Shown piece by piece: positions 10,659-42,239 of a stretch of 48,562 nt of DNA. Position numbers and translations under genes: made by a program. The number at the start of each line of letters is the position of its first letter. Within the stretch, counting starts at the first letter, position 1. Location: positions 1-48,562 of the forward strand of contig JAUIBG010000002.1 in NCBI GenBank assembly GCA_030428165.1. Direction: 5' to 3'. The stretch is from Actinomycetes bacterium. GTDB taxonomy: Bacteria > Actinomycetota > Actinomycetes > Actinomycetales > Demequinaceae. The notes below the pieces were generated by a model. The model had not been told where the DNA came from. It saw nothing but the letters and a program-made list of their open reading frames with translations, and did not search any database.

Positions 10659-10702
10659 GCGGCGAGTGTAGGACCCACCGGATCGCCAACGAGTTGCGCA
10701 AT

Positions 10703-10753
10703 GTGGAACAACACGTACGGTCCTAGAGCCTGCGGCCGTACCGAATGTTCCAC
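10703..10753 (+). repeat. 51-bp palindromic element, copy A
   Basis: GTGGAACA-acac-GTACGG-N15-CCGTAC-cgaa-TGTTCCAC then TTGTGG and G-rich tail; same 51-bp span as copies B, C, D. Confidence 0.8.
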
Positions 10754-10849
10754 TTGTGGCGCCGGGGGTGGGGCGGCTGGCCGAATAGACCGCTGGTCGA
10801 AACGGCGGGTGGCCGTGGCCAGGCTCACGGCGAATCCGCCTCCTGCACG

Positions 10850-24734: not shown

Positions 24735-24821
24735 GGTAGCGTGTCCGAGCGGCCTAAGGAGCACGCCTCGAAAGCGTGTGTGGGGGCAACTCCACCGTGG
24801 GTTCAAATCCCACCGCTACCG
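24735..24821 (+). tRNA. tRNA-Ser(CGA)
   Basis: Acceptor GGTAGCG/CGCTACC, anticodon arm CACGC-CTCGAAA-GCGTG, T-loop GGTTCAAATCC, long variable arm. Confidence 0.93.
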
Positions 24822-27500: not shown

Positions 27501-27581
27501 AGGAGCACACATGGTACCCGAGTGACACGGGGGACCGCGAACCCGCGCGAACGGGGGCCGATGCCGGGTACGATGGACGCC

Positions 27582-27670
27582 GGCCCTCCACGTGGCGCCA
27601 CCTCGCCCAACTCCCCCAGGTCGGAAACGAAGCAAGGGTAAGCGGGCTCTGGCGGGTGCGTGGAGGGTCC
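27582..27670 (+). ncRNA. ffs: Bacterial small SRP RNA (4.5S)
   Basis: Closing stem GGCCCTCCACG/CGTGGAGGGTCC, conserved CAGGTCGGAAACGAAGCAAGGGTAA apical region; upstream of dnaX. Confidence 0.9.
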
Positions 27671-27725
27671 TCTCATGTCCCCATCCGCGCGTGCCGCGTC
27701 GGTCCCTCGGGCTAGGCTCGCTCCC

Positions 27726-36098: not shown

Positions 36099-36166
36099 CC
36101 GCCGCGGTCACCGCGCCACCCCGGCGCCACCACGGCACCATCGCCGCGATCCTGCCACCGGGCTTG

Positions 36167-36217
36167 GTGGAACATCTCGCACGGAAATCTCGAGCATTTC
36201 CATACAGGACGTTCCAC
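36167..36217 (+). repeat. 51-bp palindromic element, copy B
   Basis: GTGGAAC-N9-GGAAAT-N7-ATTTCC-N9-GTTCCAC then TTTTCC and GGTGGGGTCAGGGG. Confidence 0.8.
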
Positions 36218-36278
36218 TTTTCCGGTGGGGTCAGGGGACAGTGAGGCGGGCGCCGCGCGGGTCTCGCAGCCGCCGCGG

Positions 36279-40867: not shown

Positions 40868-40960
40868 AGCGTAGATCAGGACGGTTCGGGATGCAATCGG
40901 CGCTCGACGGCGAGGACGCCAGCGCGAGCGGGCCTGATCCCACCCGTCCCCGACGTCCGC

Positions 40961-41017
40961 CCCCTCGCCATCCCCTCGCCATCCCCTCGCCATCCCGTAC
41001 GTCTGCCCCCTCGCCAT
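40961..41017 (+). repeat. 11-bp tandem repeat CCCCTCGCCAT (three perfect contiguous units 40961-40993 plus one at 41007-41017)
   Basis: Read directly; lies in the tail of palindromic element C. Confidence 0.85.
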
Positions 41018-41036
41018 CCCATCGGGCTCCCCACAA

Positions 41037-41087
41037 GTGGAACGTGCTGCCTGAGAATCGCGTGGATTCGCAGGCGCCGTGTTCCAC
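41037..41087 (-). repeat. 51-bp palindromic element, copy C
   Basis: GTGGAAC...GCCTGaGAATC-gcgtg-GATTCgCAGGC...GTTCCAC; tail (AAG, C-rich on + strand) lies to the left, so minus orientation. Confidence 0.8.
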
Positions 41088-42007
41088 TAGCGCCGAGGCA
41101 TCGACCGGGCAACGGCCGACAGCACCAGGTCACGACATCGGCGGGGATGGTCTCGCAAGTCTGAGAACCCAAATCGGAGGGTGACGTAACCAGCGGCGGC
41201 GAGCTCCGCATCTCGGTGGCGGTCGCGACGAATGCCGGCGAGGCGTTCGTGATCCTTGCGACCGTCGAACTCGACGACGACGCGCGCCTCGCGATGGCAC
41301 ATGTCCGCGCGACGTGTGGAGCTGCCTGTATCGATCGGAACCTGGAAGTCGAACTCGCCGAACCGCGGACCGGTGAAGACTCGGTGCCTCGCAAAGGACT
41401 CCAGCCACGACTCGCTCCCGGAGGCCGAATCGGACACCAGCGCTTCCAGCATGCGACGCGCAGGAACACGCGGCCGTTCGACGAGTTCACGCTCTATCGC
41501 CGTGACGCTGGCGCACCTCTCCCACATGGCTCGGTAGTAGAGGTCCGCACGGCCTGCTGGCTGCGCCGTGCTCCACGCATCGATGAGAGCGGCCGCGGGC
41601 TTGGCGACCCGCGCGCCGCCCAGCCAGTCCGCGGGCGGCAGCCGGCGACGGCGGAGCACCCGCACGCCCTCACGCTCCCTGACTCGATGGTCCCGCCCCA
41701 CCGCGATGACAACCGGACCGGACGCGCTCCATCCGCTGCAGTGCACCGCAAGCGCCGTCTCGCCCGTGACCACTGCCCCAGGCAGCCACAGCATCACGGC
41801 GCCCGCCACTACACGGGCGTGAGAGGCGTGACGAGTTCCACAGAAGGCTCCGGGCGCCAAGCGGACGAGCTCACCGGACCTGCGTGCCGCGTCGAACTGA
41901 TACCGAGACCACCGCGCATGCAGTTCCGCTCGGGAGTAGGCGATTGGAAAGGCATCGACGTAGTCGACCAAGGATCTGTATCCGGTGGCATCGGGGAGCG
42001 CTCGCAC
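41087..42007 (-). CDS. AbiEi-like N-terminal region + DUF559/Vsr-like PD-(D/E)XK endonuclease-domain protein
   Basis: C-terminus ADMCHREARVVVEFDGRKDHERLAGIRRDRHRDAELAAAGYVTLRFGFSDLRD typical of DUF559; GTG start at 42007 inferred; ORF track runs in frame to 42835. Confidence 0.75.
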   Translation of the reverse strand: MRALPDATGYRSLVDYVDAFPIAYSRAELHARWSRYQFDAARRSGELVRLAPGAFCGTRHASHARVVAGAVMLWLPGAVVTGETALAVHCSGWSASGPVVIAVGRDHRVREREGVRVLRRRRLPPADWLGGARVAKPAAALIDAWSTAQPAGRADLYYRAMWERCASVTAIERELVERPRVPARRMLEALVSDSASGSESWLESFARHRVFTGPRFGEFDFQVPIDTGSSTRRADMCHREARVVVEFDGRKDHERLAGIRRDRHRDAELAAAGYVTLRFGFSDLRDHPRRCRDLVLSAVARSMPRR

Positions 42008-42088
42008 GAGTCGATCGTGCGTGCTGCGCCTGAAGCCCGCTGGCGAGTGACGCGGAACTGTGGAGAACGCTTGTGTCCACGGCGCGAT

Positions 42089-42139
42089 GTGGAACGTCCT
42101 GCTTGGAGATCGCAGCAAAACACGGGCAAGGGGTACCAC
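42089..42139 (+). repeat. 51-bp palindromic element, copy D (GTGGAAC...GTACCAC)
   Basis: One mismatch in the terminal arm; inner TGCTTG/CGGGCA pairs as RNA with G-U; followed by TTGGGGGTGGGGGGCGG tail. Confidence 0.65.
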
Positions 42140-42239
42140 TTGGGGGTGGGGGGCGGATGGCGGGGAGGGCGAGGCGGGGTCGGGCCGGACGGGCGAGCGC
42201 CGGGGCCGGGTCCGGGTCAGGGGCCGATGGTGGAGTCGG

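Follow-up and report, generated by a model that had tools for sequence, protein, structure and literature searches.

A DUF559 gene in a Demequina genome is bracketed by two copies of a palindrome, and the original prediction compared this arrangement with REP/RAYT pairs, in which a mobilizing enzyme is flanked by its own palindromes. The enzyme here is a Vsr-type nuclease. Does the locus represent a mobile-repeat system run by such a nuclease, or do the palindromes have another function? We analyzed the 48,562-nucleotide stretch that contains the gene (the window), its homologues, and the dispersed copies of their repeats.

The bracketed gene and its palindromes

Four 51-bp copies of the palindrome had been predicted in the window. 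All of them are present, D with one arm mismatch (Table 1). The exact arms, GTGGAAC-N37-GTTCCAC, occur in A, B, and C, i.e., three times in the window against an expectation of 0.00 by chance. The genome from which the window was taken (2.38 Mb, 229 contigs) contains five exact copies and none of a reversed control pattern. The arms reach one or two bases further outward (AAGTGGAAC...GTTCCACTT), and the length of the palindrome is thus 55 bp. In single-stranded DNA folding against shuffled sequences, the z-scores are −3.9 for A, −2.6 for B, −6.4 for C, and +0.8 for D. Since D folds no better than the shuffles, it is a decayed copy.

Table 1. Positions in the window of the DUF559 gene, its bracketed unit, and the four palindromes.
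Feature	Position	Strand	Description
DUF559 gene	41087..42007	-	GTG start, 306 aa; N-terminal AbiEi-like DNA-binding region and C-terminal Vsr/EDxHD-type nuclease
Whole bracketed unit, 1107 bp	41035..42141		Between GH42 beta-galactosidase gene and ROK-family gene
Palindrome A, solo	10701..10755	+	Core 10703-10753; intergenic between DJ-1/PfpI gene and nrdF
Palindrome B, solo	36165..36219	+	Core 36167-36217; between convergent asd and arabinofuranosidase gene
Palindrome C, 3′ bracket	41035..41089	+	Core 41037-41087; overlaps the gene's stop codon (41087-41089)
Palindrome D, 5′ bracket	42087..42141	+	Core 42089-42139; decayed; ends 79 bp before the start codon

The prediction also described C and D as inverted copies with G-rich tails that point outward, C overlapping the stop triplet of the gene. 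This description is accurate: the alignment score of C and D is 38 in inverted and 28 in direct orientation, both G-rich tails point outward, and the core of C runs into the stop codon. Taken on its own, the similarity of the C and D flanks falls between the 99% and 99.9% shuffle quantiles; what makes the pair convincing is the exactness of the arms and the presence of the same arrangement in homologues. Immediately outside C (40955-41032) are 11-bp tandem-like repeats, CCCTCGCCATC, and a comparable G-rich stretch lies outside D. Rfam matches in the window are an ordinary small SRP RNA (27579-27675) and a tRNA gene (24735-24821). Sparse G-T pairs were considered as proof that the palindromes are maintained at the DNA level, and this was rejected. 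G-T pairs are slightly enriched among the mismatches (0.28 vs. 0.17), and therefore RNA or single-strand hairpins may also be formed.

The N-terminal half of the protein matches the PADLOC AbiEi profile, and the C-terminal part matches Pfam DUF559. Profile searches of the gene did not find a recognized transposase domain. An AlphaFold2 model (41-sequence alignment; pLDDT 94.7) resulted in Foldseek matches to Rv2827c and AbiEi, both AbiEi-type antitoxins, followed by the endonuclease-like 3hrl and the catalytic domain of I-Bth0305I. The match to 3r3p, an EDxHD homing endonuclease, has a probability of 0.98; whole-protein matches are modest (TM about 0.37). Residues E203, D235, E246, D248, H253, and R265 show no or almost no variation in 115 proteins of about 305 aa, and this conservation indicates a nuclease domain under selection for continued activity. 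The closest relatives with names all belong to Demequina, the genus in which the window's genome is also placed. The genes on either side encode GH42 and ROK proteins, and no DUF1814 (AbiEii) toxin gene adjoins it.

Bracketing in homologues and two end geometries

DUF559 homologues are commonly bracketed. Repeats shared between the left and right flanks exceed the 99.9% quantile of 3270 dinucleotide shuffles at 72/109 Demequina loci (about 0.1 expected), with about a third of the loci lacking a significant bracket; the distant flanks of the same loci pass in 0/30 cases. Syntenic loci match one another, which makes cross-locus pairing unusable as a flank control, and dinucleotide shuffles and distant flanks were used for this purpose. 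In six genomes of a second genus, 21/27 DUF559 loci are bracketed. Thus, the predicted co-location with DUF559 genes is found in both genera, and the system reaches beyond Demequina.

The bracketing repeats differ from gene to gene. GTGGAAC-N37-GTTCCAC had been suggested as a search pattern, and it recovers the five exact copies in the window's own genome; across 59 relatives it gave one chance-like match. The search fails in the relatives because each gene has its own arms, and a search by architecture is therefore needed. The five other DUF559 genes of the window's genome (L007, L008, L010, L011, and L012, on other contigs) are each flanked by a different repeat family of their own. In L007, which at 58% identity is the closest paralogue, the arms are GCTCCGAACA instead of GTGGAAC. 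Autonomous units occur once per family per genome and are not multicopy.

The ends have two geometries. In class I, which includes the window, each end is a palindrome of ~55 bp with gene-specific outer arms and a common inner core, roughly TGAGTGC..GGATC...GATCC..GCACTCA. The 34 class-I copies align without gaps and possess no common head. Covariation is 0.67, vs. ≤0.13 when the arms are slid, with two-sided changes in 22/23 pairs, although the sequences were picked for palindromicity and these pair counts describe the design rather than give independent proof. The unit in the window (1107 bp) matches the size of 22 class-I units elsewhere (mostly 1089-1133 bp). The start of the 3′ palindrome precedes the end of the stop codon by exactly 14 nt in 11/22 class-I units.

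In class II, each end consists of two direct motifs 41-42 bp apart (24/32 ends, with spacings of 18-74 allowed), and the two ends are mutually inverted. The left and right flanks are similar in inverted orientation only, i.e., they are terminal inverted repeats. The opposite orientation that had been claimed for the brackets is therefore right for C and D and strictly so for class II; in class I generally the brackets can be direct or inverted, because the palindrome is nearly symmetric. The class changes six times on the protein tree, compared with 25.5 times with shuffled labels (minimum 18), and is thus inherited with the protein. Among the bracketed loci of the second genus (L294-L322, six genomes), DUF559 genes are bracketed by class-II-like paired motifs, CGTGATCATGG, and also by palindromes with the arms GTCACGCCGGAC..GCAGAAGT.

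Dispersed copies and a comparison with REP/RAYT

A covariance model of class-I ends detected copies in 37/37 Demequina genomes and 1/22 others, a result favored by training on Demequina. The sole genome from outside the genus is the one with the best out-of-genus DUF559 match. In the complete genome of D. sediminis, nearly all solo copies bear the arms of the single bracketed class-I gene of that family, and one copy with different arms adjoins another DUF559 gene. For 61 solo palindromes in 18 genomes, the mean arm distance to the brackets of their own genome is 2.16/11, vs. 4.76 when permuted, and 0/2000 permutations were as low; for some of the solos, no matching bracketed gene was found in the same genome. 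The original prediction had allowed that copies might be distributed independently of DUF559 genes. They are not, as the arms of the solos match those of the resident bracketed gene, and one class-II repeat family is confined to genomes that have its own gene.

By heuristic gene calls, the intergenic solo copies lie between 20 convergent, 22 tandem, and one divergent gene pair, and two copies are inside an ORF call. The copies in D. sediminis tend to be nearer the gene than expected (KS p 0.009), and two of the four solos in the window's genome are within this window (p 0.002); both tests are small and post hoc. D. sediminis also carries near-identical palindrome pairs ~0.4 kb apart (L081-L083, L089) in two places separated by 23 kb, at ~2.289 and ~2.312 Mb, which suggests the duplication of a repeat-bearing segment.

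The proposal that palindromes are paired with a Vsr-type nuclease in the manner of REP/RAYT is supported by the co-location, the cognate solo copies, and the empty sites described below. A dispersal system of this type, driven by an unrelated nuclease of the homing-endonuclease kind, is in our view the probable explanation. RAYT genes are flanked by two palindromic repeats that also occur as extragenic single and inverted-pair copies; a genome may hold several repeat classes, each matching one gene, and repeat abundance tracks the cognate gene (PMC2817692, PMC3686654, PMC8049555). The DUF559 system has the same two flanking repeats, cognate dispersed copies, gene-dependent abundance, and inverted doublets like those of REPINs. 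REP repeats are short (20-40 bp) with a conserved tetranucleotide head, whereas the DUF559 sites are ~55-60 bp with paired motifs 42-44 bp apart and lack a GTAG-type head. The enzyme is also different, a PD-(D/E)XK/Vsr-fold nuclease with an AbiEi-like region and not a Y1 HUH transposase. We did not find a Y1 HUH transposase (PF01797) in 36 genomes; the control matched in 5/14 known genomes. The DUF559 system works like REP/RAYT but is not a member, as the HUH enzyme was found neither in the bracketed gene nor in these 36 genomes. To our knowledge, enzymes of this kind have not been found to run a mobile-repeat system, and a search of a collection of open-access papers found no report that links DUF559 to flanking repeats.

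Binding, cutting, and movement by the DUF559 protein could proceed as follows. The protein, a single chain that joins an AbiEi-type DNA-binding region to a Vsr/EDxHD-type nuclease domain, would recognize a site of two ~10-nt motifs about 42-44 bp apart (four helical turns). The motifs would be inverted in class I, forming the 55-bp palindrome, and direct in class II, with one site at either end of the gene. A dimer may grip the two motifs four helical turns apart, which is consistent with the paired inverted-repeat binding of AbiEi-type proteins (PMC7319586) and the ~60-bp target of I-Bth0305I (PMC3943268). The nuclease would cut at or near the site, and the cut, followed by host repair or replication, would copy single sites or inverted site pairs to new intergenic places. 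The whole ~1.1-kb unit would be moved occasionally, and each gene would disperse its own repeat family only. A further-reaching version makes the Vsr/EDxHD nuclease with its AbiEi-like region the sole mobilizer of its own ends, as single, doublet, and whole-gene copies, with no known transposase or recombinase, and perhaps widespread in Actinomycetales; we are evenly divided on it.

If this system is real, a role could be assigned to hundreds of actinobacterial genes for which DUF559 or AbiEi-like is the sole annotation, and their flanks would reveal a predicted DNA target. The REP/RAYT lifestyle would have an independent origin, based on an unrelated nuclease, and the question of why bacteria retain these repeats could be addressed in a second system. 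The predicted site, which is long (55-60 bp), readable, and specific to each gene, also makes the nuclease open to direct tests and potentially useful as a tool.

Empty sites in close species and other explanations

Units and repeats differ between closely related species. The L155 unit is found in D. subtropica (G011) and at the same place in G017, and is missing in D. gelatinilytica (G019), G002, and G030. D. gelatinilytica and D. subtropica are ~95% identical (94-95% in the L155 flanks). L155 repeats occupy many sites in G011 and G017 and none in G019, G002, G006, and G030. At each of the eight G011 solo sites that were tested, G019 has an empty site, with net length differences of 70-183 bp, and several G011 copies (L230-L233, L235, and L237) are REPIN-like inverted doublets of 130-150 bp. 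The solo copies of G017 are at other sites than those of G011. The simplest reading is a gain of the L155 gene and its repeats in G011; loss of the gene and all copies in G019 is less likely. G017, G002, and G030 also lack a second unit, L102, which is found in G019. Presence or absence of the whole unit with an empty site in relatives, proposed as a check on mobility, is thus seen for both units, with one gene-level example per unit family. We could not define a target-site duplication or a base-exact junction at the empty sites, as the junctions are blurred by divergence of the intergenic DNA between species.

The repeats could instead be the operators of a regulon, with an AbiEi-like autorepressor acting on its upstream repeat and on dispersed repeats elsewhere, and a nuclease domain that serves another purpose. 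AbiEi and Rv2827c bind pairs of 23-bp inverted repeats and autoregulate through them, over a similar total length of 49-59 bp (PMC7319586), and every bracketed gene has an upstream repeat. We consider a regulon unlikely: it does not account for the second repeat copy at or inside the stop codon, for solos that lie mostly between convergent or tandem genes (divergent 1/43), for length differences of 70-183 bp between close species, some of them inverted doublets, or for invariant catalytic residues. The likeness to AbiEi antitoxins (type IV toxin-antitoxin systems, including Rv2827c) is in the N-terminal domain, by profile and fold, and in the paired inverted-repeat sites of AbiEi. The window gene has no AbiEii (DUF1814) partner, is fused to a nuclease, and has repeats at both ends and dispersed, and is not a complete AbiE system.

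Homing-type spread, in which the nuclease cuts alleles without the unit, homologous repair copies the unit in, and the dispersed repeats are old targets, is quite unlikely. Two observations fit it: the nuclease domain has an EDxHD homing endonuclease among its matches, and the L155 unit shares one location in G011 and G017 while G019, G002, and G030 lack it. However, the presumed target is uninterrupted, with a whole copy at either end of the gene, and genomes without the gene are also without solo repeats, the reverse of what is expected of empty homing targets. The doublets would also be left unexplained. The target on which I-Bth0305I dimerizes is nearly 60 bp long (PMC3943268), and the DUF559 protein resembles this enzyme in its related nuclease fold and its conserved acidic and His residues. 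The DUF559 gene differs in being free-standing and chromosomal, not in an intron or intein, in its AbiEi-like DNA-binding region, and in having a full repeat at either end as well as many dispersed copies.

The repeats might also be moved in trans, by another recombinase or by host replication errors, with the DUF559 gene a passenger captured between two copies. In favor of this, the tie between the protein and movement is an indirect one, and host replication has been proposed for local REP amplification (PMC8049555). A passenger is nonetheless improbable, as about 110 loci from two genera, with ends of either geometry, repeat the association, always with one gene family and with gene-specific arms, and the classical REP mobilizer was not found in the 36 genomes searched. 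MITEs and insertion sequences are similar in that class II has terminal inverted repeats and gene-less inverted doublets exist. The DUF559 unit differs from them in that it has no known transposase domain and its autonomous copies stay single.

Coincidental transcription terminators or chance palindromes are very improbable: many copies are at gene ends, but we found no terminator-like site at C or D, the exact arms are far above chance, and the cognate matching and the variation of the repeats between close species contradict terminators that are conserved regardless of the gene. Searches for an Rfam RNA, plasmid carriage, or phage carriage gave nothing.

At the L102 site, G011 holds an unrelated ~1.4-kb insert (G011:C13:247647-249048, in L330) with no detectable similarity to the L102 unit. 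At the orthologous site of L050 (G011) and L173 (G019), the two species have the same class-I palindrome, and G019 has a second class-I palindrome, of another arm family, that is missing in G011.
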